Part shown: positions 37,545 through 48,920 of the stretch, piece by piece
Numbering within the stretch: the first letter of the stretch is position 1
Layout of the letters: the number at the start of each line of letters is the position of its first letter
DNA from: Sphingobium indicum BiD32
GTDB lineage: Bacteria; Pseudomonadota; Alphaproteobacteria; Sphingomonadales; Sphingomonadaceae
Length of the DNA stretch: 64,000 bases
Direction: 5' to 3'
Assembly (NCBI RefSeq): GCF_000382885.1
Contig: NZ_CAVK010000150.1
Coordinates: 1 to 64,000, forward strand
Notes under the pieces: generated by a model
The model's input: the letters and a program-made list of their open reading frames with translations, nothing else
What the model was told of the DNA's origin: nothing
The model's database searches: none
Program-made: the position numbers and the translations under genes

Positions 37545-37685
37545 TCAATCATCATCATTCAGGATGCGCAGCGCCGAACCGTCGGGATCGTCAAATTGCC
37601 CGGCCGTCAGCGCCCAGAAGAAGGCACCAAGCCCGACCAGTCCCAGCAGCAGGGCAATGGGAATGAGGAGGGCAAGGCCGATCAT
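37545..37685 (-). CDS. ccoS: cbb3 oxidase maturation protein CcoS
   Basis: A 46-aa membrane protein with one N-terminal span (MIGLALLIPIALLLGLVGLG), then FFWALTAGQFDDPDGSALRIL, the diagnostic CcoS segment. It is needed for cofactor insertion (haem b and copper) into CcoN. The start overlaps the ccoI stop by 4 bp. It is the last gene of the ccoNOQP-GHIS cluster. Confidence 0.9.
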   Translation of the reverse strand: MIGLALLIPIALLLGLVGLGAFFWALTAGQFDDPDGSALRILNDDD

Positions 37686-39820
37686 CGCGCAGCCCGCCGC
37701 AAACGCAGGGCATTGGCAATGACGATCAACGACGAACTGGACATGGCCAGAGCAGCGACCAGGGGGGTGACAAGCCCGGCAATCGCCAGCGGCACCGCCA
37801 ATATATTATAGCCCACAGCGAGCAGGAAATTCTGACGCACCACCGCCAGCGTGCGCCGCGCCGCACGCACGGCAACCGCGACGGATGCCAGGCTGTCGCC
37901 CAGAAACACGACATCGGCGGCCAACTGGCTGACATCACTGGCCGAGGATGGGGCCAGGCTGACATGCCCCGCCGCGAGCGCGGGACCATCATTCAGGCCA
38001 TCCCCCACCATCAGCACACGATGCCCCTGCGCCTTGAGCCGCTCGATCATCGCCAGCTTGGCCTGCGGGCTCATATGGCCCGTCGCCAACATGCCCGTCG
38101 CGACGGCGACATCGTGCAGCGCCTGGGGCCGGTCGCCGCTCGCGATGATGGGATCAAGGCCAAGAGTCCGCAGGTCGGCTGCCGTCGCGGCGGCGTCGGG
38201 ACGCAGCATGTCGGCAAAGGTCAGCAGAATATGGCGCTCGCCCTCCCGATATTCCGTGGAAAGGCTGGTCCAGTTGCCCGCATGTTCCGGCCGGGCAAGC
38301 GATACGGCCCTTCCCTGCCACAGCCCGCTTACGCCAACGCCAGCATCCTCGCGCAGGTCGGACAGCGTGGCGGCGGTGACGCCCTGTCTTTGCAGCGCCT
38401 CGGCCAGTGCCGCGCTCAGCGGATGGCGGCTGGCACGGGCCAGTGCCAGCACGACGGGCCGGGCATCGGACGGCAGCGCATCGAGGTTCACGGGCATGGG
38501 CCGACCGAGCGTCAACGTGCCGGTCTTGTCGAAAATCGCGCGGTCTGCCTCGGCCAGCCGCTCCAGCGCGGACCCGTCCTTCACCAATATGCCGCGCCGC
38601 ATCAGCGCGCCGCACGCCACCACCTGCGCGGCAGGCACAGCCAGGCCAAGGGCGCAGGGACAGGTGATCAGCAGCACGGCGGTGGCGATCAGCAGCGCCT
38701 GATGCAGGCCAGCGCCCGCGATCATCCACCCTGCAAACGACAGGGCGGCCAGCAGATGTACGGCAGGCGCGTAAAGCCGCGCGGCCCGGTCGGCAATGCG
38801 GACATAGCGTGACTTGCCCTGCCCTGCCGCGTCCATCATCCGGGCTATATCGGCGATCAGCGTATCCGCACCCGCGGCGCGCACGACGACGCTCAGCGGC
38901 CCGTCCATATTGAGCGCACCGGCATGAACGCCGTCGCCGACCCCGACCGCCATCGGCTGGCTCTCGCCAGTCAGGAAAGCAAGATCGACGCTGCTCTTGC
39001 CTTCGCGAATTTCGCCATCGGCCGCGAAGCGTTCGCCCGCCGCCACCTGCATCATCATGCCCGGCACCAGCGCCCGCGCGGCGACCCAGCGACGCTGCCC
39101 CGCTTCGATCACATAGGCACCCGGTGCGGTCTGGCGCAGCAGCGCGGCGACGCCATCGCGCGCCCGGCCACGCATCATGGCGTCAAGGCATCGTCCGGCC
39201 AGCAGGAAGGTCAGCAACATCACCGCGCCGTCGAACCAGGCATGGGCGCCACCGGTGATCGTCTCATAAAGGCTCATGCCGGTTGCCAGCAGCACCCCGA
39301 TGCTGATCGGCACGTCCATATTGGTGCGCCCCGCGCGCAGCGCAGCGATGGCGGAACGGAAGAAGGGCTGCCCGGCATAGGCGACGGTCGGCAGGGCGAT
39401 CAGGGCGGACAGCCAGTGAAACAGTTCACGGGTCGCGCCCATCGCCCCGGACCAGATCGATACCGACAGCAGCATGATGTTCATCGACGCAAAGCCCGCG
39501 ACGGCAAGCGCGCGCAACAGTCGCTTGTCCTGCGCACTCTCCACGTCGATCGTCGGATCGGCCAGTGGCTCGGCGGCAAAGCCGATGCCCGCAATTGCCG
39601 CGCGCAGGTCCGGCACGGTCAGCGCCGGATCATGGGTGATGGCGACACGCCGGGCCGAATAGTTGACGCGCGCGGCATGGATACCCGGCAACATGGTCAG
39701 CCCGCGCTCGACCTTGGCGATGCAGCCGGCGCAATGCATGTCGGGCACCGCGAATATGCTATGGGCCGTGTCCCGCACGACCGGATCGGGCGACAAGGTG
39801 ACAGGCACGCCCTGCATCAT
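37682..39820 (-). CDS. ccoI: Copper P1B-type ATPase for cbb3 oxidase assembly (FixI/CcoI)
   Basis: A 712-aa heavy-metal ATPase delivering copper for the CcoN binuclear centre. An N-terminal HMA domain carries MHCAGC; the membrane CPC motif is in LLITCPCALGLA; phosphorylation motif DKTGTLTLG; TGES-type loop FLTGESQPM; hinge MVGDGLNDGPALA; and the ATP-binding HP in ASRHPLS. Residue count and context fit FixI rather than a detoxifying CopA. ATG 39820 overlaps the ccoH stop as ATGA (a second ATG follows at 39817). Confidence 0.93.
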   Translation of the reverse strand: MMQGVPVTLSPDPVVRDTAHSIFAVPDMHCAGCIAKVERGLTMLPGIHAARVNYSARRVAITHDPALTVPDLRAAIAGIGFAAEPLADPTIDVESAQDKRLLRALAVAGFASMNIMLLSVSIWSGAMGATRELFHWLSALIALPTVAYAGQPFFRSAIAALRAGRTNMDVPISIGVLLATGMSLYETITGGAHAWFDGAVMLLTFLLAGRCLDAMMRGRARDGVAALLRQTAPGAYVIEAGQRRWVAARALVPGMMMQVAAGERFAADGEIREGKSSVDLAFLTGESQPMAVGVGDGVHAGALNMDGPLSVVVRAAGADTLIADIARMMDAAGQGKSRYVRIADRAARLYAPAVHLLAALSFAGWMIAGAGLHQALLIATAVLLITCPCALGLAVPAAQVVACGALMRRGILVKDGSALERLAEADRAIFDKTGTLTLGRPMPVNLDALPSDARPVVLALARASRHPLSAALAEALQRQGVTAATLSDLREDAGVGVSGLWQGRAVSLARPEHAGNWTSLSTEYREGERHILLTFADMLRPDAAATAADLRTLGLDPIIASGDRPQALHDVAVATGMLATGHMSPQAKLAMIERLKAQGHRVLMVGDGLNDGPALAAGHVSLAPSSASDVSQLAADVVFLGDSLASVAVAVRAARRTLAVVRQNFLLAVGYNILAVPLAIAGLVTPLVAALAMSSSSLIVIANALRLRRAAR

Positions 39821-40272
39821 CCGTTCCTTTCCAGAAAGCGCATGTCCTGGCCGTCGGCCTGAACGGTCCAGTGGATGATCCATCGCCCAGCGGGCAGCGG
39901 GGTTACCGCGCGCCAGTGGCCGTCCGCCTGCGCCTCAAAGCGCAAAGGAATGTCGGCAGCGCGCCCCAGCGGATGTTCGGCCGTCGCGCTGACCGACGTC
40001 GGCGTCGCGCTTGGCCCAACCAGCGTCAGCACCAGATGGCGTCCGGCGTCCAGGCGCGTTTCCTGCCGCCAGCCAAGGGCATCCTGCCGTCGCGCCATGG
40101 CGAGCCAGTCATTGAAGCGCTGGCTCGCGACATAGCTATTGTCGACCACCGTGCCGCCGAAGCCCCCAACGGCGTAACTGGCCATCAGGACATTCACCGC
40201 GATGACCACGGCAAAGAAGCTGACGAAGATCGCCGCGACATGGCGACCGTTGAGGCGAAAGCTGGACATCAT
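39817..40272 (-). CDS. ccoH: cbb3 oxidase assembly protein FixH/CcoH
   Basis: A 151-aa protein with one N-terminal membrane span (VAAIFVSFFAVVIAVNVLMA) and a periplasmic domain. The segment SYAVGGFGGTVVDNSYVASQ is a typical FixH feature, and HWRAVTPLPAGRW is near the end. FixH stabilises subunits during oxidase assembly. It overlaps ccoG (ATGA) upstream and ccoI downstream. Confidence 0.9.
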   Translation of the reverse strand: MMSSFRLNGRHVAAIFVSFFAVVIAVNVLMASYAVGGFGGTVVDNSYVASQRFNDWLAMARRQDALGWRQETRLDAGRHLVLTLVGPSATPTSVSATAEHPLGRAADIPLRFEAQADGHWRAVTPLPAGRWIIHWTVQADGQDMRFLERNG

Positions 40273-41699
40273 TGCGGCCTTTCAAAATGAGCGGCTTCGC
40301 GGTCGGTGCCACCTTCGCGATCGGTCGCGCGAACGGTGAAGGCGAAATCCTGGCGCGCAGGCCCGGCGCCGGGCACGGCGAGGAAGATGCGCAACTTGGC
40401 CACGCTGTCGGCCGGGACGATCGTGTCGATCGCGGCGCGAGCGTCGCCCCTGTCGTCACGGTCGGTCCACAGGCTGGCGCCCGGCAGTCCTTCTACCGCG
40501 ACGCGCATGGTCCGGGGACGCGATTCCATGTTGCGCAACTTGACCATATAGGCGTTGCGGATAGCGCCGTCGGACAGGCGCACGGCAATCGGGTTGCGAT
40601 CCTGCTGCGCGCTGATGTCGATGCGCGTACGGGTTCCCAGCGCAAACAGCATCGCCCCACCAATCCCACTCCACAGCGTGAGATAGACCAGGGTGCGAAC
40701 GTGCAGCAGTGACCGGATGACCGAGCGTGGGGCACGGCCCGCCTTTTCGGCAGTGGCGTCATCTTCGGTGCAATAGTCGATCAATCCGCGTGGCCGCCCG
40801 ACCTGCGCCATCACCTTGTCGCAGGCGTCGATACAGAGCGCGCAGGTGATGCAGCCGATCTGCGGTCCTTCGCGTATGTCGATGCCGGTGGGGCAGACCG
40901 CGACGCACTGGTCGCAGTCGATGCAGTCGCCAAAGGCGTCGGGTTGCGCCTGCGCCTTCTTCAGGCTGCCCCGCCGTTCGCCCCGCCAATGCTTGTAGGT
41001 GACGACCAGCGACTTTTCATCGAGCATCGCGGTCTGGATACGCGGCCACGGGCACATATAGATGCACACCTGTTCGCGCATGAAGCCGCCCAGGACGAAG
41101 GTGGTCGCGGTCAGGACGGCGACGGTGGCATAGGCGACGGTCGCTGCCGTTCCTGTCCAGAACTGGTGCTGGAGCGTCGGCGCGTCGGCGAAATAGAATA
41201 TCCACGCGCCGCCGGTGCCAAAGGCGATGACCAGCCAGACGCTCCATTTGGCGATCCGCCGGGCGATCTTGGAAATGCTCCAGGGTGCTTTGGCGAGACG
41301 TATCTGGGCGTTGCGATCGCCATCCATGAACCGTTCGACATGCTGGTAGAGGTCGGTCCACACCGTTTGGGGACAGGCATAGCCGCACCATGCGCGCCCG
41401 ACAGCGGAGGTCACCAGGAACAGGCCGATACCCGCCATCACGAGCAGGCCCGCGACATAATAGAATTCATGCGGCCATATCTCGATCGCGAACATGTAGA
41501 AGCGACGATTGGCCAGGTCGATCAGCACCGCCTGATCGGGCGCATAGGGTCCGCGATCCCAACGCAGCCAGGGGGTGATCCAGTAGATGGCGAGCGTGAC
41601 CACCATGACCGCCCATTTGAGGCGACGGTAAAAGCCATCGATCGCCTTGGGATAGACGCCCTTGCGCTTTTCGTAGAGGGACAGGGGAGCGGTGGTCAT
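40269..41699 (-). CDS. ccoG: cbb3 oxidase accessory iron-sulfur protein FixG/CcoG
   Basis: A 476-aa membrane protein with about five spans and two 4Fe-4S clusters: CIDCDQCVAVCP and CITCALCIDACDK near residues 260-300. GRAWCGYACPQTVWTDLY and CIYMCPWPRIQTAM are FixG/NapH-like motifs, and the C-terminal Ig-like domain follows. FixG is a copper reductase that helps deliver copper to CcoN. ATG 41699 is chosen; the open frame continues upstream only because it reads through a palindromic repeat (41706-41826). Confidence 0.93.
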   Translation of the reverse strand: MTTAPLSLYEKRKGVYPKAIDGFYRRLKWAVMVVTLAIYWITPWLRWDRGPYAPDQAVLIDLANRRFYMFAIEIWPHEFYYVAGLLVMAGIGLFLVTSAVGRAWCGYACPQTVWTDLYQHVERFMDGDRNAQIRLAKAPWSISKIARRIAKWSVWLVIAFGTGGAWIFYFADAPTLQHQFWTGTAATVAYATVAVLTATTFVLGGFMREQVCIYMCPWPRIQTAMLDEKSLVVTYKHWRGERRGSLKKAQAQPDAFGDCIDCDQCVAVCPTGIDIREGPQIGCITCALCIDACDKVMAQVGRPRGLIDYCTEDDATAEKAGRAPRSVIRSLLHVRTLVYLTLWSGIGGAMLFALGTRTRIDISAQQDRNPIAVRLSDGAIRNAYMVKLRNMESRPRTMRVAVEGLPGASLWTDRDDRGDARAAIDTIVPADSVAKLRIFLAVPGAGPARQDFAFTVRATDREGGTDREAAHFERPQ

Positions 41700-41705
41700 T
41701 CCCCC

Positions 41706-41826
41706 ATTCCTCCCCTGCAAGGGGAGGTGGCAGCGCGCAGCGCTGCCGGAGGGAGCGTGCGTTGACGCGCGCGCCCTCCGCCAATCGCTTCGCGATCGGT
41801 CCCCCTCCCGGAAACAGGCAGGAATT
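41706..41826. repeat. Palindromic element between ccoP and ccoG
   Basis: ATTCCTCCCCTGCAAGGGGAGG opens the element, followed by a GGCAGCGCGCAGCGCTGCC hairpin and GGAGGG, then CCCTCCG, CAATCGCTTCGCGATCGG and a degraded right end (CCCCCTCCCGGAAACAGGCAGGAATT). It has the same plan as 8667-8790 and 59870-60017. It fills the only sizeable gap within the cco operon. Confidence 0.85.
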
Positions 41827-41841
41827 TGGAGCAGGGAATGA

Positions 41842-42732
41842 TCATCGCGGCGCAGCCTCGCCCCCGCCCAGGCTGTGGACATAGACCGCGAGCATCCGTA
41901 CCGTCGCCGCGTCCAGCCTGTCGCCCCAGCGTGGCATCACGCCCTGGCGGCTGTTCCACACGGTCTGGTGCAGGGATTCCCCGTCGCCGCCATAAAGCCA
42001 TATGCCGTCGGTCAGCTTGGGTGCGCCCAACTGACGATTGCCCTCGCCTGCTACGCCGTGACAGACCGCGCAATTGTCGGCAAAGAGCGTCGCCCCGCGC
42101 TGCGAAGCCGCGTCACCCTTCTGCTGGCCGCTGATGGTGCGGACATGGGCAACGACATCGTCGACCTGCTGCGCCGTCATCAACTGGTCGCGGCCAAAAG
42201 CAGGCATTATCGAAATGCGGGTTTCGGCATGATCGGGATTGCGAATGCCATCAACAATCGTCTTTTCGATGGTGGCAAGATCGCCGCCCCACAACCAGTC
42301 GTCGTCATTGAGATTGGGATAGCCCTTCGACCCGGCCGCGCCGGACCCATGACACTGGACGCAATGCACTTTGAAGGCGGCACGGCCACCCTCGACCGCC
42401 GCCTGCATCAGCGCGGGCCTGGCCGGAAGTTCATCAATCGGGGTCGCGGCGATGGCACGGTGGATCGGCGCCACCTTCTCCGCCTGCGTCGCCATCTCCC
42501 GCGCCAGATCGCCACGGCTGGACCAGCCCAGCATCCCGGTGGTGTAGCTGTCGATCAGCGGCCACGCCGGATAGGCGACGACATAACCGATCGAAAAGAG
42601 GATGCAGGCATAGAATGTCCACAGCCACCAGCGCGGCAGGGGCGTATCGAGTTCCTCAATCCCGTCCCACTCATGCCCCATGGTCGGGGTTCCGGTGGGC
42701 TGGTCAATCTTGCTTCTGGTCGGGTCAGCCAT
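41842..42732 (-). CDS. ccoP: cbb3 cytochrome c oxidase subunit III (dihaem CcoP)
   Basis: A 296-aa dihaem cytochrome c subunit. The N-terminal membrane helix (WWLWTFYACILFSIGYVVAY) follows EWDGIEELDTPLPRWW, the standard CcoP entry. Haem c motifs are CVQCH at 124-128 and CAVCH at 221-225, each with a downstream Met ligand (SIMPAFG, GVMPRWG). It passes electrons from soluble cytochrome c to CcoO. ATG 42732 lies within the ccoQ 3' end (8-bp overlap). Confidence 0.95.
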   Translation of the reverse strand: MADPTRSKIDQPTGTPTMGHEWDGIEELDTPLPRWWLWTFYACILFSIGYVVAYPAWPLIDSYTTGMLGWSSRGDLAREMATQAEKVAPIHRAIAATPIDELPARPALMQAAVEGGRAAFKVHCVQCHGSGAAGSKGYPNLNDDDWLWGGDLATIEKTIVDGIRNPDHAETRISIMPAFGRDQLMTAQQVDDVVAHVRTISGQQKGDAASQRGATLFADNCAVCHGVAGEGNRQLGAPKLTDGIWLYGGDGESLHQTVWNSRQGVMPRWGDRLDAATVRMLAVYVHSLGGGEAAPR

Positions 42733-42898
42733 GGTCGCTTCCCTTCGCTTCACTGTCGGTGAGGATCATCATGGCGGCGTCGCTGCTGCGGCGCTTGCCG
42801 CCGGGACGGAAATGCCAGCCGATGAGGATCAGATATAGGAGGCCCATGAAAACCAGACCCCAGCTGTCTGCGAAATGCCGCATAGCGTCATAGCTCAT
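42725..42898 (-). CDS. ccoQ: cbb3 oxidase subunit IV CcoQ
   Basis: A 57-aa small membrane subunit starting [20 protein letters not shown], with one membrane helix ([17 protein letters not shown]) followed by [12 protein letters not shown]. CcoQ stabilises the CcoP-CcoNO contact. It overlaps ccoO (ATGA) and ccoP. The pattern and position leave little doubt. Confidence 0.93.
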
Positions 42899-43641
42899 CG
42901 CGGTTTCTCCTGCGGGGCTGCCGCATCGACATCAACCAGCGTGCCGATCATCTGGAGATAGGCGACCAGCGCATCCATTTCGGTCAGCTTGGCCGGATCG
43001 CCGTCGAAATCGCGCACCTGCGCCTTGGGATAGCGTTTCACCAGCGCCGTGCTGTCAGCGGTGGGATCGGCCTGCGCCTTCAAATCCTCATTGGCGGCGG
43101 CGATGGCGGCCTTGTCATAGGGGACGCCAACGCGCGACAGGGCGGTCAGGTCGCCGCTCATATCGCCTGCCTTGAGTTCGCGTTCCGCCAGGAAAGGATA
43201 GGTCGGCATGATCGATTCCGGCACGACGGCGCGCGGATCGACCAGATGCTGGACATGCCATTCATCCGAATAGCGGCCGCCCACGCGCGCCAGGTCCGGC
43301 CCGGTGCGCTTGGACCCCCACTGGAAGGGATGATCATACATGCTTTCGGCGGCCAGGCTGTAATGGCCGTATCGTTCGACTTCATCGCGGAACGGGCGGA
43401 CCATCTGGCTATGGCAGTTGTAGCAGCCTTCGCGGATGTAGATATTGCGCCCGGCCAGTTCGAGCGGGGTGTAGGGGCGCATCCCCTCCACCTTCTCGAT
43501 CGTGGAGTCGATCCAGAAGAGCGGCGCGATCTCCACGATGCCGCCAATGGCGACGACGATCAGCGACGCGATGCCCAGCAGGGAGACGTTACGCTCCAAT
43601 CGGCCATGATCGAAAAATTTGCGTTTTGTCTTGGTTTCCAT
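42895..43641 (-). CDS. ccoO: cbb3 cytochrome c oxidase subunit II (monohaem CcoO)
   Basis: A 248-aa membrane-anchored monohaem cytochrome c. The N-terminal helix ([21 protein letters not shown]) precedes the periplasmic domain; the haem motif is CYNCH at 73-77, in [14 protein letters not shown], with the Met ligand probably in [27 protein letters not shown] is a family hallmark. It lies 13 bp downstream of ccoN. Confidence 0.95.
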
Positions 43642-43654
43642 GTCGGTGTCTCCG

Positions 43655-45307
43655 TCACGCGGCGTGCGGCTGGAGGGGACGATCTGCGGCGGGATCGAAG
43701 GCTGCGTCGCGCATCGGCTTTTCCTGCCGCTGGCGTCCCGCGATGGTCAGGCCGATATTGACCGCCATGATGATCGCGCCAGCCAGATAGAGCAGACCGC
43801 CCGCTGCGCGGATGACGTACATGGGGAACATGGCCTTCACGACTTCGGAGAAGGCATAGACGAGGTAGCCGTCGCTCCCATATTCGCGCCACATCAGCCC
43901 CTGCATGATGCCTGCGGTCCACATCGCGGCGGCGTAGAGAACGATGCCGACGGTCGCGAGCCAGAAGTGCCAGTTGACCATCCGCAGCGAATAGAGGCGT
44001 TCCCGGCCCCACAGGCGCGGCGTCATATAATAGAGGCAGGCGAAGGTGATCATGCCGTTCCAGCCCAGCGCGCCGCTATGGACATGGCCGATCGTCCAGT
44101 CGGTATAATGGGACAGGCTGTTGACCGCCTTGATCGACATCATCGGGCCTTCAAAGGTCGACATGCCGTAAAAGGCCAGTGCCATCACCATCATGCGAAT
44201 GATCGGGTCGGTGCGGATCTTGTCCCAGGCACCGTTCAGGGTCATCAGGCCGTTGATCATCCCGCCCCAGCTGGGCATCCACAGCATGATCGAAAACACC
44301 ATGCCCAGCGTCTGCGCCCAGTCGGGCAGCGCGGTGTAGTGAAGGTGGTGCGGACCCGCCCAGATATAGAGGAAAATCAGCGACCAGAAGTGGATGATCG
44401 ACAGGCGATAGCTATAGACCGGCCGTTCCGCCTGTTTCGGCACGAAATAATACATCATCGCCAGAAAACCGGCGGTCAGGAAGAAGCCCACGGCATTATG
44501 GCCGTACCACCATTGGGTCAGCGCATCCTGCACGCCCGCAAAGGCGCTATAGCTTTTGGACCCCAGCAGGCTGACCGGCATCGACAGATTGTTGACGATG
44601 TGCAGCATGGCCACGGTGATGATGAACGACAGGTAGAACCAGTTGGCGACATAGATATGCGGTTCGCTGCGGCGCATGATGGTGCCGCCATAGACCAGCA
44701 GGTAGCAGACCCACACGATCGTCAACCACAGGTCGACATACCATTCCGGCTCGGCATATTCCTTGCCTTCGGTAATGCCCAGCAGATAGCCGGTTGCCGC
44801 CAGCACGATGAACATCTGGTAGCCCCAGAACACGAAGCGGGCCATGGCGGGAAAGGCGAGCCGCGCGCGGCAGGTGCGCTGCACGACGTAGAAGCTGGTC
44901 GCGATCAGCGCATTGCCGCCAAAGGCGAAGATAACCGCAGACGTATGCAGCGGCCGCAACCGGCCGAAGCTGGTATATTCAATCCCCAGGTTCAGCGCCG
45001 GGAAGGCCAGCTGGAGCGCGATGTAGAGCCCGGCGAGAAACCCGGCCAGACCCCAGAATATCGTCGCGATCACGCCCCAGCGGATCATGTCGTCATCATA
45101 GCGCCCCGGATCGGGCATTTTGAGCGCGCCACGCACGATCGCGCCATAATCGGCGCGATTGAGGGTGAGCGCCGCGAGCAGCAGTCCAGTCGCTGCCACG
45201 ATCGTCATGTGGACGGCAAAGCCGGTGTCCGCCGCCATGACTGCCGCAGCGGCTGCAAGCAGGGCCAGTGCGAACCATCCGCCCGCCTTGATGACCAATT
45301 GTTCCAT
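43655..45307 (-). CDS. ccoN: cbb3 cytochrome c oxidase catalytic subunit I
   Basis: A 550-aa haem-copper oxidase subunit of type C with about 14 membrane helices, reducing oxygen at low concentration and pumping protons. Histidine-bearing family segments include [16 protein letters not shown] (low-spin haem), [20 protein letters not shown] (copper B), [16 protein letters not shown] and [17 protein letters not shown] (haem ligands). The start ATG 45307 is preceded by GGGGGA. It is the first gene of the ccoNOQP-GHIS cluster. The upstream 128 bp hold an FNR-like box and an AGGGACATT element. Confidence 0.97.
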
Positions 45308-45366: not shown

Positions 45367-45380
45367 TTGTCCTCTGTCAA
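45367..45380. promoter_or_regulatory. FNR/FixK-like box upstream of ccoN
   Basis: TTGTCCTCTGTCAA keeps the outer TTG and TCAA of the TTGAT-N4-ATCAA consensus (7 of 10 positions). It is centred about 66 bp upstream of the ccoN ATG. cco operons are classic FNR/FixK targets and an FNR-type gene lies next door, so the match is credible though imperfect. Confidence 0.55.
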
Positions 45381-45405
45381 AAGGGGGGATCGGGGTCTGT
45401 AGGGG

Positions 45406-45416
45406 AATGTCCCTAT
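45406..45416 (-). promoter_or_regulatory. AGGGACATT element upstream of ccoN
   Basis: On the minus strand ATAGGGACATT lies about 100 bp upstream of ccoN, inside the partial palindrome AGGGACATTCCCCT. The same AGGGACATT core occurs upstream of fnr and usp in the same orientation. It is a candidate operator for the neighbouring response regulator. Confidence 0.5.
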
Positions 45417-45435
45417 CCCGGCCGAAACTGGCCGA

Positions 45436-46188
45436 TCAGGCCGCTTCGGCGCAGCAGGCCAACTGGTCGCGGTCCAGAATTTCGACCGTGCGCCGGTTGG
45501 GCAGCGCGATGATTCCGGCGCGCTTCATGTCGGTCATCTGGCGGCTGACCGTCTCGATCGTCAGGCCCAGCACATCGGCCACCTGCTGGCGCGAAAGGGG
45601 TAGCGCGAACCTGTCGAGCGGCCCTGCGCCCTCCCCCGCCAGCCGGTGCGACATATCAAGCAGGAAGGTCGCAATCTTTTCCCGCGCATTCTTGCGGCCC
45701 AACAGCAGCATCCAGGCCCGCGCCCGGTCGAGGTCATCGAGCGTGCGTTGCAGCAGGCGATGGCCCAGTTCGGGATGGGTGCGGGCAAAACCATCGAACG
45801 CGCCACGGGTGAACAGGCACAATCGTGCATCGGTCAGCGCGGTGACGCTGTGCGGGGTGCTGCGGCCAAAGGGCCGGCCGATGAAATCGGATGGATAGAC
45901 CACCCCCACAATCTGTTCGCGCCCGTCGCCGGTGGATGCTGATAATTTGAGCGTGCCTTCGATGACATTGGCGACGATGGTGGCATCGTCGCCCTCCCAC
46001 ATCACCGTCTGTCCGGCCTGCACCGTGACCCGCCTGCCCAGGCGATTGAGCGCAACGCGCTCGTCATCCTCCAATGTACCGCAAATGGCGCGCGCGCGCA
46101 CGTCGCATTGCTGGCAGAAGCTGGCATCCTGACAAGGGACCGGGGCGGCGGCGGGCGCGGTTTGCGCCAGATCAAAATGCATCATCAT
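45436..46188 (-). CDS. fnr: FNR/CRP-family regulator with iron-sulfur cysteines
   Basis: A 250-aa CRP/FNR regulator. N-terminal cysteines Cys19, 25, 28 and 36 plus internal Cys124 (ARLCLF) match the FnrL-type C-X2-C-X7-C plus one arrangement, so an oxygen-labile 4Fe-4S cluster is likely. The effector barrel spans about 45-160; the C-terminal winged helix contains LSRQQVADVLGLTIETVSRQ, whose E-SR pattern recognises TTGAT-type half sites. It probably activates ccoN under low oxygen. Three consecutive ATGs open the frame; the first is used. An AGGGACATT element lies 41-52 bp upstream. Confidence 0.9.
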   Translation of the reverse strand: MMMHFDLAQTAPAAAPVPCQDASFCQQCDVRARAICGTLEDDERVALNRLGRRVTVQAGQTVMWEGDDATIVANVIEGTLKLSASTGDGREQIVGVVYPSDFIGRPFGRSTPHSVTALTDARLCLFTRGAFDGFARTHPELGHRLLQRTLDDLDRARAWMLLLGRKNAREKIATFLLDMSHRLAGEGAGPLDRFALPLSRQQVADVLGLTIETVSRQMTDMKRAGIIALPNRRTVEILDRDQLACCAEAA

Positions 46189-46228
46189 GATCGCTGCCTG
46201 ACGCAGCGGGCGACATGCGCCTATCCGT

Positions 46229-46240
46229 AATGTCCCTGAT
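46229..46240 (-). promoter_or_regulatory. AGGGACATT element upstream of fnr
   Basis: On the minus strand ATCAGGGACATT (46240-46229), followed by ACGGATAG, lies 41-52 bp upstream of the fnr start. The core and the following CGGAT resemble the usp copy. Confidence 0.5.
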
Positions 46241-46246
46241 CAAGCC

Positions 46247-46855
46247 TCATTCCAGCCCCGCCTGAAAGGCGATGCGCAGCGCTTCAGACAGGCTGCGCAC
46301 GTCCAGCTTCTGCATCAGATTGGCGCGATGGATTTCCACCGTGCGGGGGGAAATGCCCAGATCATAGGCGATCGACTTGTTGGGCAGCCCTTCGACCAGC
46401 CCGGCCAGCACTTCACGCTCACGATCGGTCAATATGTTGAGGCGCGCCTGGGCTTCGTCGCGCCGGGCACCGGCATCGCGATGCGCGGCAACCTGTGCGC
46501 AGGCGGCGGCGATGGCATCCAGCAACGCTGCCTTCTCGAACGGCTTTTCGATGAAGTCGGTCGCGCCCGCCTTCATCGCAGCGACCGCCATGCCAACATC
46601 GCCATGACCGGTCATGATGATGACGGGCAGGACGATCCCCCGCGCGCGCAGTTCGCGCTGCACCTCCAGCCCGTCCATGTCCGGCATCCGCACGTCGAGC
46701 AGAACGCAGCCCTGGTCCAGCCCGGCGACCTCCTTGAGGAAGGGCAAGCCGCCCGAAAAGCTCTGCACCGGAAAGCCGCTCGTCTTGAGCATGAAGCTCA
46801 GCGACCGGCGGATCGCCTCATCATCATCGACGACATAGATCGGAGGTTGGGTCAT
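46247..46855 (-). CDS. fixJ: FixJ-type response regulator
   Basis: A 202-aa two-domain regulator. The receiver has acidic pocket VVDDDEAIRRSLSF, phospho-acceptor Asp54 in VLLDVRMPDMDG, Thr in VIIMTGHGDV and Lys in FIEKPFEK. The LuxR-type helix-turn-helix is LTDREREVLAGLVEG through GISPRTVEIHRANLMQKL. It is the partner of the FixL-like kinase 4 bp upstream. In rhizobia FixJ activates fixK and fixNOQP; here fnr and ccoN are next in line. Confidence 0.92.
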   Translation of the reverse strand: MTQPPIYVVDDDEAIRRSLSFMLKTSGFPVQSFSGGLPFLKEVAGLDQGCVLLDVRMPDMDGLEVQRELRARGIVLPVIIMTGHGDVGMAVAAMKAGATDFIEKPFEKAALLDAIAAACAQVAAHRDAGARRDEAQARLNILTDREREVLAGLVEGLPNKSIAYDLGISPRTVEIHRANLMQKLDVRSLSEALRIAFQAGLE

Positions 46856-46859
46856 GGCG

Positions 46860-47996
46860 TCAATCCGCAGGATCAAGGGTGAAGTGAAAGGCGACCCCGC
46901 CCCAGCGTGATCGCGTGGTCCAGATGCGACCGCCATGGCCTTCGACGATAGTGCGGCTGATCGACAGGCCAACCCCCATGCCCGTGGGCTTGGTGGTGCT
47001 GAACGGGGTGAAGAGCGATCGTTCGGCCGCAGGATCAAGGCCGGGGCCGCTGTCGGCGATGATGATTTCCACCCGGCCTTCCTCATCCGGCGTCGCCGAC
47101 AGATGGAGGATACGCATCGGCCGCCCCTCCATGGCTTCCACGGCATTGCGGACCAGGTTGATGATCACCTGCTGCACCTGAACGCGGTTGGCCATGATCC
47201 GGCCGACACGCGGATCGACGGCGATGTCCATGTCGATGCCCCGGCTGTTGATGCCGATAAAGGCCAGCGCGACCCCTTCCGACAACAAGGTGGAGACCGT
47301 TTCGGGCTGGCGGTCGGCTTCGCCCCGGCGGATGAATTCGCGCAGCGACCGGATGATTTCCCCCGCGCGCAGCGCCTGGGTCGCGGCTTCGTCCATGGCT
47401 TCGCCCAGCAATGCGCGATCGATCGCGCCGTCCTGTGCCAGCAGGTCGCGGCCCGCTTCCATATAATTGGCAATCGCGGTCAGGGGCTGGTTGAGTTCAT
47501 GCGCCAGCGCGGCGGCCAGCGTGCCCATGGCGGTGACGCGCGACGCATGGCTGAGTTCCGCCTGCAAATCCTGCACCCGCCGCTCGGTGCGCTGCCGTTC
47601 GGTCAGATCGCGGATGAAACCGGTGAACAGCGGCTCCCCCTGATCATGCACCTCACCCACCGCCAGTTCGATCGGGAAAGTCGATCCGTCGCGCCGCCGC
47701 GCCGTGGTCAGGCGGCCGATGCCGATGATCTTCTTTTCGCCTGTCTCGCGATAATGATCGAGATAGCCATCATGCCGCTCGCGATCGGGCGATGGCATGA
47801 GCATCGCCACATTCTCGCCCAGCACTTCGGCTTCGCTATAATGGAACATGCGCTGTGCGGCCGAGCTGAACGATATGATGCGCCCGCGTGCGTCGATGAC
47901 GATCAAGGCGTCAGGCACCGTCGCCAGGATCGACCCCAGCAACGCCTGTTCCAGGCTGTGCGCATCATCGCGCGGATCGACATCGTTGATCGCCAT
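46860..47996 (-). CDS. fixL: FixL-like sensor histidine kinase
   Basis: A 378-aa soluble kinase with one PAS domain (about 18-135) and HisKA-HATPase (about 145-375). Compared from memory with Bradyrhizobium FixL, His75 (RHDGY) aligns with the haem ligand His200 and Arg95 (IIGIGR) with Arg220, so oxygen sensing by haem is plausible; the Arg206 and His214 positions are His81 and Lys89. The phospho-acceptor is His166 in ALAHELNQPLTAI; ATP-site boxes INLVRNAVEAM, DSGPGL and GMGVGLSISR follow. No membrane segment is present. It is encoded between usp and fixJ. Confidence 0.9.
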   Translation of the reverse strand: MAINDVDPRDDAHSLEQALLGSILATVPDALIVIDARGRIISFSSAAQRMFHYSEAEVLGENVAMLMPSPDRERHDGYLDHYRETGEKKIIGIGRLTTARRRDGSTFPIELAVGEVHDQGEPLFTGFIRDLTERQRTERRVQDLQAELSHASRVTAMGTLAAALAHELNQPLTAIANYMEAGRDLLAQDGAIDRALLGEAMDEAATQALRAGEIIRSLREFIRRGEADRQPETVSTLLSEGVALAFIGINSRGIDMDIAVDPRVGRIMANRVQVQQVIINLVRNAVEAMEGRPMRILHLSATPDEEGRVEIIIADSGPGLDPAAERSLFTPFSTTKPTGMGVGLSISRTIVEGHGGRIWTTRSRWGGVAFHFTLDPAD

Positions 47997-48016
47997 CGCC
48001 CATCACTGACCGGAAA

Positions 48017-48832
48017 TCAGTGCGCCAGCAAGAGCGGAACTCGCGCTTCGCTGAGCAGGTAGCGGGTGACCCCGCCAAAGATCGTCTCGCGCAGGCGGCT
48101 ATGGCCAAAGGCGCCCATAGTGATCCAGTCCGCGCGCAGTTCGTCGGCCGCAGCGGCCAGCGCCTCCTCGACCGTGCGCCCCTTGCGCGGCCATTCGTGG
48201 ATTTCCGACGCAATGCCGTGGCGCGACAGATATTCGCTGGCGTCGATCGGGGGGAAATCGCGCTTGGTCTTTTCCTCGACCGTGACGACATGCACCTCGC
48301 CAGCCAGCGCCAGCAGCGGCCTGGCGGCGCACAGGGCGACGGCGGCCTCATGCGATCCGTCCCACGCCACCATCGCCCGCCCCTGACAGGCAAAGCTCTG
48401 GCACGCCTGCGGCACGGCCAGGATCGGTGCGCGGCTGCTGATCGCAAGGTCAGCGACGATCGGTAGCGGATCGCCGATCGCGCGGCGCCCCGGCGTCGGC
48501 AAGGTCACGACGATCGCATCGGCCAGCCGCGACGCGGACAGCAGGCATTGCACCACCTCGCCATCGCTGTGTCGCCAGTCCCATGCCACGCCTTCGCGCT
48601 GCAACCGCGCTTCAACCTTCGCCTTCACCTTGTCCTCAGCCTTGCGTATCTCGTCGATGTCGCTGGGCAGCACATAGCTGCCCCCATACATATCCGCCGA
48701 AACAAATTCGATCACCGGCGTCACCTGAAGGCAGCGGATATGCGCGCCGGTCGCGCGGGCAATATCCAGCGCAACCTCCATCCTGCTGTTCTGGGCGTTA
48801 TCCTCATGAATGTGCAGCAGGATGGTTTTCAT
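48017..48832 (-). CDS. Universal stress protein (tandem UspA domains)
   Basis: A 271-aa UspA-type protein. The first half starts MKTILLHIHEDNAQNSRMEV; the second half has MVAWDGSHEAAVAL and ends GAFGHSRLRETIFGGVTRYLL, the ATP-binding G-X2-G-X9-G-S/T-like pattern, giving two Usp folds. ATG 48832 is chosen over six codons of upstream frame as it matches Usp starts. Usp genes are often induced by low oxygen, and this one lies directly upstream of fixL (20-bp gap) with an AGGGACATT element 78-88 bp ahead of its start. Confidence 0.85.
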   Translation of the reverse strand: MKTILLHIHEDNAQNSRMEVALDIARATGAHIRCLQVTPVIEFVSADMYGGSYVLPSDIDEIRKAEDKVKAKVEARLQREGVAWDWRHSDGEVVQCLLSASRLADAIVVTLPTPGRRAIGDPLPIVADLAISSRAPILAVPQACQSFACQGRAMVAWDGSHEAAVALCAARPLLALAGEVHVVTVEEKTKRDFPPIDASEYLSRHGIASEIHEWPRKGRTVEEALAAAADELRADWITMGAFGHSRLRETIFGGVTRYLLSEARVPLLLAH

Positions 48833-48909
48833 GGACGGAACTCCGGGCATAAGGGCGTTGGGCGATTGGCTTCCTGATTATGCCGGTCCAGCCGCACCCT
48901 CCATCCGCA

Positions 48910-48920
48910 AATGTCCCTAT
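48910..48920 (-). promoter_or_regulatory. AGGGACATT element upstream of usp
   Basis: On the minus strand ATAGGGACATT (48920-48910), followed by TGCGGATGG, precedes the usp start by 78-88 bp. It is the third copy in the same orientation in this locus. Confidence 0.5.

Follow-up and report, generated by a model that had tools for sequence, protein, structure and literature searches.

The subject of this report is a 64,000-nucleotide stretch of Sphingobium indicum BiD32 (contig NZ_CAVK010000150.1, positions 1 to 64,000; hereafter the window), which carries a FixLJ oxygen-response locus on its minus strand, in the order usp, fixL, fixJ, fnr, ccoN, ccoO, ccoP, ccoG, ccoH and a gene for a copper-type P-ATPase. 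Upstream of usp, fnr and ccoN lies an element of the approximate form TAnGGAnnnTnnCnKA, an imperfect palindrome of 16-19 base pairs (bp). From comparison with related sequences we consider it very probable that the FixJ encoded in the same locus uses this element as its operator, and that the element underlies autoregulation of fixLJ as well as a feed-forward loop of FixJ and Fnr onto the cbb3 oxidase.

A sequence-only reading of the window had drawn attention to the nonamer AGGGACATT, and the repeat it described is indeed there: the window contains exactly three exact copies, all on the minus strand (45406-45414, 46229-46237 and 48910-48918), and they sit in one orientation in the gaps preceding ccoN, fnr and usp, respectively. 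No longer word is shared by these gaps. Among 5000 first-order Markov resamplings of these gaps a common 9-mer never arose, and a common 8-mer arose in three. Whether the repeat exceeds the genomic background, as that reading had required, has a divided answer, because the bare nonamer occurs 14 times in the 4.79 Mb genome against 7 times for the reversed control, only about twice background. Ten of the eleven copies elsewhere score at most 5.1 in a 19-position matrix of the larger element, and one (L014) scores 19.1, just below the lowest training site (20.3). The CGGAT said to follow both the fnr and the usp copy is present at both, but as AGGGACATT-ACGGAT at fnr and AGGGACATT-TGCGGAT at usp and thus in a shifted register. 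Relative to the usp and ccoN copies, that at fnr is displaced by one base; therefore part of the nonamer identity there is fortuitous, although the element itself is present. Judged by the upstream alignments described next, AGGGACATT is just the local spelling of the larger conserved element.

To define this element, stretches from 40 genomes of the same genus were mapped with the window proteins, three of the stretches lying around FixJ paralogues only. Matches to usp and fnr below 48% identity were excluded; the usp of G015 was lost in this way and later restored, and the FixJ-paralogue loci L061-L063 remained excluded. The upstream regions of the relatives align on a single block, which resembles TAAGGACTATCCCGGATGG at usp and TAGGGACATTTACGGATAGGT at fnr and is spelled TAGGGACATTCCCCTACAGAC or TACGCATTTTCCCGTAAAGAC at ccoN. 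When the 78 upstream regions on which it was trained are scored with a 21-position matrix, more than 20 bits are reached by 34/34 usp, 19/19 ccoN and 17/25 fnr regions; the eight weaker fnr sites belong to the window clade (4; 16.9) and to one other clade (4; 12.7). The control maxima are -2.0 for fixJ upstream regions (n = 40), -1.8 for ccoG (18), 7.5 for ccoP (18) and 8.3 for shuffles (78). Upstream of fixL, three of 39 regions score 26-30, and these are exactly the genomes without an adjacent usp. The sites above 20 bits comprise 41 distinct 21-mers, from which 39 distinct 19-mers were taken for the model. In these, T1, G4, T10, C13 and A16 show no variation, and A2, A6 and G19 are conserved to at least 90%.

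The window holds three predicted FixJ-type operators, all on the minus strand: TAGGGACATTTGCGGATGG at 48901..48919 for the usp-fixL-fixJ unit (matrix score 26.1), TAGGGACATTCCCCTACAG at 45397..45415 for the ccoNOP operon (23.7) and TCAGGGACATTACGGATAG at 46221..46239 for fnr (13.7). The fnr site has a conserved right half and an altered left half, as is characteristic of the window clade. A search model, R1, recovered the usp and ccoN sites but not the fnr site, and these two were its matches in the window's own genome at E <=10 (150 of 1051 candidates scored).

The element is conserved at orthologous promoters in those genomes which possess the corresponding FixJ. We call this regulator FixJ1 when it shows at least 71% identity, and it is present in 39 of 61 same-genus genomes (G025 being included from a truncated copy). 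The sequence-only reading had proposed conservation at orthologous promoters as a check, and in these 39 genomes it turned out positive: the element precedes usp in 36/36 cases and fixL in all three cases where usp is not adjacent. At fnr, the canonical site is found in 31/39 genomes and the right half alone in the other eight, and among ccoN copies of at least 77% identity the site is present in 33/36; it is found in 0/6 of the lower-identity ccoN copies in the same genomes. Because the matrix was trained on the 78 regions, the held-out genomes and copies provide the fairer test, and of these 14/14 fnr and 14/17 ccoN regions pass. At E <=2, R1 has matches in 36/39 FixJ1 genomes against 3/22 of the others, the latter at E 1.3-1.8. 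The same pattern is seen in loci from named organisms, where the site stands before usp or fixL in 15/15 FixJ1-type loci, and of the loci with a more distant FixJ 0/65 exceed a score of 12.1 upstream of any one of the four genes. Among the best 80 named FixJ matches, all genus-named ones with at least 78% identity are from Sphingobium, the top one at 95%. A family-wide scan with R1 gave matches in 3/199 genomes at E <=0.5, a weak negative given 42 candidates per genome and the fact that the window's own sites lie beyond that cut-off.

The genomes lacking FixJ1 provide the counterpart. Where such genomes have a ccoN of at least 79% identity with upstream DNA, the site is found in 0/9 (best score 2.9, either strand), although the FNR-type box before ccoN is kept in 9/9; likewise, the site is found in 0/9 before an fnr of at least 59% identity (best 3.4). 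A tenth FixJ1-less genome, G033, was left uncounted, as its ccoN is only a fragment without upstream DNA. Three more ccoN copies (56-60%) in FixJ1-less genomes score at most 3.8 on the forward strand, one of them (G007) reaching 12.6 on the reverse strand. Fisher tests on 33/36 versus 0/9 for ccoN and 31/39 versus 0/9 for fnr give 2.5e-7 and 1.4e-5, ignoring relatedness. Under the same proviso the site is found only together with its matching FixJ, as is expected of a FixJ operator.

The sites also travel with their genes. In six genomes (G008, G012, G026, G039, G044 and G049) fnr and ccoN are separated from usp-fixLJ, and each retains the site; in G039 usp is relocated too, and usp and fixL each have their own. 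A GNAT acetyltransferase gene occurs near usp on the opposite strand in many genomes, with a GNAT match in 37 genomes and none in the window's genome. Of the 30 GNAT loci examined four are detached, and in 4/4 the site stands 79-103 bp upstream (scores 15.8-28.5); 17 others have the site in a region shared with usp or fixL, one is truncated and has no site, and none of eight GNAT paralogues (46-53% identity) scores above 12. An ion-channel-domain gene is preceded by the site in G004 (L146) and G021 (L161), the two upstream stretches being almost identical. Altogether there are about 25 off-locus R1 matches, of which 17 stand before fnr (11), ccoN (1), usp (1), GNAT (2) or the ion-channel gene (2), and eight (G042:C42, G028:C65, G036:C46, G026:C3, G006:C2 and one each in G003, G014 and G060) are without explanation.

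Some further observations concern these loci. Beside the site upstream of usp, a divergent frame of 116-122 residues (MTW..IRLEL...) starts in L046, L053, L072, L078, L081 and L083, and in four of these six loci GNAT then follows within the stretch; the single protein of this type that was searched had no Pfam family, and at the corresponding place the window has an MCP-domain gene. After the ion-channel gene in L146 and L161 there is a frame that, judged by its sequence alone, resembles a metallo-beta-lactamase-fold protein. L148 (G042), L150 (G028) and L154 (G036) hold sites that match the matrix well (21.7-26.6), and no target gene is clearly shared among them.

The element resembles the known FixJ site. 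In Sinorhizobium meliloti the FixJ site at the fixK promoter is TAAGTAATTTCCCTTA (Kurashima-Ito 2005, as quoted in PMC4999443; this and the other papers are cited here from excerpts). The 16-mers of the sites agree with it at 9-14 of 16 positions, namely 9-13 at the three promoters and 14 at the best match, TAAGGACTTTCCCTTA, before the GNAT gene in G046. Background 16-mers share 4.0 on average, and 278 of 106,223, true sites included, reach 9. In a 16-column matrix TAAGTAATTTCCCTTA itself scores 14.2 (reverse complement 16.2), compared to 18.2-25.6 for the training sites, and 14.2 is reached by 5 of 200,000 shuffles and 3 of 2,000,000 random 16-mers. The sequence-only reading held that the element differs from the rhizobial FixJ sites; this has to be revised, since the window sites share 9 (usp), 11 (ccoN) and 12 (fnr, reverse complement) of 16 bases with TAAGTAATTTCCCTTA or its reverse complement and are of the same kind. 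The sites follow the palindrome TAnG-N8-CnTA, which is imperfect at usp and fnr, where the right half is CnGA and not CnTA. As expected of FixJ sites they stand upstream of a fixK/fnr-type gene, in canonical form or as the right half. The FixJ recognition helix is nearly constant among these FixJ proteins and Bradyrhizobium japonicum FixJ. Similar palindromes occur outside the genus: TAnG-N8-CnTA precedes an fnr/fixK-like gene in four of the seven loci L234-L240, e.g. as TAAGTAAAATCCCTTA in Mesorhizobium norvegicum. In Sphingomonas rhizophila (L184), a palindrome of this form, TACGCAAACTTACGTA, lies upstream of both fixL and ccoN and is apparently shared by them.

Could another protein bind the element? 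Another regulator of the FixJ/NarL family might do so instead of FixJ1 or alongside it, for example the second FixJ paralogue of the window's genome (G000:C202, 64% identical), whose kind has recognition helices nearly identical to those of FixJ1. We regard this as unlikely, because the ccoN/fnr site tracks FixJ1: FixJ paralogues are present in several FixJ1-less genomes, and G017, G027, G040, G043 and G056, with paralogues of 61-65%, have no ccoN site. Moreover, the paralogue locus of the window's genome (L155, G000:C202:6000-24000) has no site above 13. In G033 an intermediate site, TAGGTACTATCCCTTA, adjoins a FixJ paralogue and is itself close to the S. meliloti site. FixL/FixJ paralogues of about 60-64% recur in sphingomonads, and L192 (Sphingobium sp. 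SYK-6) is located on plasmid pSLPG; the paralogue pair is possibly a mobile module. It is still less probable that we are dealing with a conserved core-promoter or sigma-factor element. The usp site would overlap the -35 region, if a CATAAT block downstream of it is the -10 element, but the element is quasi-palindromic, tracks FixJ1 and is absent from orthologous promoters without FixJ1, and at ccoN the distance from the site down to the FNR-type box is too great for a -35 element.

The DosR/DevR box is an inverted repeat with conserved GGGAC half sites, and the sequence-only reading had pointed to this box because GGGAC is found in all three window copies; in addition, usp genes belong to DosR regulons (PMC6127331). 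GGGAC is nevertheless not the conserved part: among the relatives, matrix positions 3, 5 and 7 are variable, and many have TAAGGA, TACGGA or TACGCA in place of TAGGGA. The analogy is therefore unneeded, and as the encoded regulator matches FixJ with 184.8 bits and DevR (3c3w) with 53.9, a DosR-type operator deserves hardly any credence. Nor does the element meet the description of an FNR/FixK box, TTGA-N6-TCAA, which at ccoN follows as a separate FNR-type box. A chance repeat without function, to which the near-background frequency of the bare nonamer and its misregister at fnr might point, is ruled out for practical purposes by the resampling and by the conservation of the larger element across the genus.

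Several points weigh against FixJ as the activator acting through this element. The co-occurrence counts ignore relatedness among the genomes. Eight of the 39 fnr sites, the window's included, deviate from the consensus in the left half, and three of the 36 ccoN copies in FixJ1 genomes are without the site; one of these, in G058, is an orthologue of 88% identity and has the FNR-type box. In FixJ1-less genomes, two fnr-like genes of lower identity have intermediate scores of 14.3 (G033) and 14.9 (G007), and the reverse strand of the 78 training regions reaches 13.6. R1 scored 42-150 candidates per genome, so that the regulon list is a lower bound. The paralogues, with their similar helices, could bind too, and FixJ is able to repress as well (PMC13327599). 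Taken against the orthologous promoters, the held-out sites, the co-occurrence with FixJ1 and the likeness to the S. meliloti site, these points leave the core of the earlier interpretation, a FixJ operator common to usp, fnr and the oxidase, strongly supported by the sequence comparisons; what did not last of that interpretation is the supposed difference from rhizobia and the importance given to GGGAC.

The genes of the locus, all on the minus strand, agree with this assignment. The product of usp (48017..48850) is a universal stress protein (Pfam Usp). It is followed after 20 bp by fixL (46860..47996), which encodes a haem-PAS sensor kinase; its PAS domain resembles that of FixL 1dp6 (3e-47) with RHD..Y and GIGR kept, and it scores 474 bits against NF041777, under the cut-off of 850. 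After a further 4 bp comes the response regulator gene fixJ (46247..46855, ATG at 46855), whose product reaches 257 bits against the FixJ equivalog NF006900 (cut-off 255) and, with FixL as its partner, qualifies as a FixJ regulator; the closest solved structure is FixJ 5xso, which accounts for the 184.8 bits, and the query sequences used began three residues after the ATG-encoded start. The short gaps suggest that usp, fixL and fixJ form one transcription unit, with usp as first gene. The gene fnr (45436..46188) encodes a Crp/Fnr-family regulator (HTH_Crp_2 and cNMP_binding) with an N-terminal cysteine cluster C-x5-C-x2-C-x7-C, and its product scores 238.5 bits against the FnrL model, under the cut-off of 300. 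The oxidase genes were assigned by NCBIfam and Pfam: ccoN (43655..45307) for cbb3 oxidase subunit I, and downstream of it ccoO (42895-43641), ccoP (41842-42753), ccoG (40269-41882), ccoH/fixH (39817-40272) and the copper-type P-ATPase gene (37682-39883).

The promoters show a regular architecture. A possible -10 element of the usp promoter, CATAAT (48877..48882, minus strand), is centred 32 bp past the site centre, and the usp promoters of the relatives have a CATAAT- or CTAG/CTAA-like block at nearly constant distance after the site. If this block is the -10 element, the usp site would be centred near -41.5. The distance from the beginning of the fnr site to the start codon is 50-52 bp (62 in G042), so that a start 41 bp past the site centre would fall approximately at the ATG; this near-constant spacing (46188-46239 in the window) hints at a leaderless fnr transcript. 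Within the first fnr codons, at 46162-46175 on the minus strand, TTGATCTGGCGCAA has the FNR/FixK-like form TTGA-N6-[GT]CAA, and the pattern recurs in fnr of 38/39 FixJ1 and 0/9 FixJ1-less genomes; this may be a box for autorepression or no more than the trace of a conserved peptide, FDLAQ. Before ccoN, the FNR-type box TTGACAGAGGACAA (45367..45380, minus strand) starts 35 bp after the start of the FixJ site, and this spacing is found in 25/25 copies having both patterns; in 8/33 ccoN copies carrying the FixJ site the box pattern is unmatched. By analogy with the ccoN box of Sphingopyxis granuli, which is centred at -41.5 (PMC7713065), FixJ would be located near -75.5.

Under low oxygen, haem-containing FixL would phosphorylate FixJ, as is known for the family. 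In the proposed circuit, a dimer of phosphorylated FixJ would bind the TAnGGAnnnTnnCnKA element over its 16-19 bp. Bound some 41 bp before the likely start of usp-fixL-fixJ, it would activate its own operon plus the stress protein; because the usp site heads the likely unit, a point absent from the sequence-only reading, autoregulation is implied. At fnr it would drive the synthesis of Fnr, which to judge by its cysteines would be an iron-sulphur oxygen sensor. At ccoN, where the centre of the FixJ site is 34 bp upstream of that of the FNR-type box, FixJ and Fnr would act jointly, presumably with AND-type logic and as activators rather than repressors. The wiring would thus combine positive autoregulation with a coherent feed-forward loop on the cbb3 oxidase.

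Related systems share parts of this arrangement. PMC4999443 derives FixJ palindromes for Rhizobiales and Caulobacterales, with FixLJ orthologues in both orders, and these palindromes and the S. meliloti fixK site are, like ours, 16-bp imperfect TAnG-N8-CnTA palindromes before a fixK/fnr gene. Our sites have G or C at position 5, where S. meliloti has T, and several of them end in GGA instead of TTA. Whereas the direct FixJ targets predicted in the excerpts of that paper are fixK, nifA, fixX and SMc03253, here the fixLJ unit itself, usp and ccoN are added. The FixLJ-FixK-cco cascade of rhizobia and Caulobacter likewise runs from FixJ via a Crp/Fnr regulator to cco through TTGA-N6-TCAA-type boxes, but here the Crp/Fnr protein has an FnrN-like cysteine cluster and cco a direct FixJ-type site; fixLJ is apparently autoregulated by FixJ, while in Caulobacterales FixK sites are predicted at fixLJ (PMC4999443). 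According to the same source the FxkR regulon of some Rhizobiales also comprises a response regulator with predicted sites at its own gene, a fixK-type gene and cco, yet its motif, GTTACA-N4-GTTACA, and the regulator are different. In the Fnr regulon of Sphingopyxis granuli TFA there is an FNR box at ccoN and an oxygen-regulated uspA, which has an FNR box at -41.5, whereas usp here has a FixJ-type site and is part of the fixLJ unit (PMC7713065). A statement in PMC6783567 that, of 18 other Sphingobium genomes, all but one lack a FixLJ homologue contrasts with the frequent occurrence of FixJ1 in our set. In the open-access literature, screened by titles and abstract openings and with subscription papers mostly outside, we recognised no report of a FixJ operator in sphingomonads, and a literal search for AGGGACATT gave no FixJ-related title among the matches listed. 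The kind of operator is already known; its presence in this group, the site at the usp-fixLJ promoter and the direct cco site are new.

On a wider reading, which we hold to be about as probable as its opposite, FixLJ of Sphingobium has been rewired into a self-amplifying hypoxia switch, in which haem FixL and iron-sulphur Fnr converge on the oxidase promoter at fixed spacing as a feed-forward gate, and a DosR-like stress set (usp, GNAT with the protein of about 120 residues, and in two genomes the ion-channel gene) is placed on the same operator. FixJ sites have hitherto been hard to define. From the sites in 39 genomes, for which the FixJ1-less relatives serve as a natural negative control, a consensus fit for use and a brief list of targets can be drawn. 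The prediction of direct control by FixJ is also extended to a group in which this regulator appears to act directly on its own operon, on a stress protein and on the terminal oxidase, and the wiring of this circuit is readily testable.

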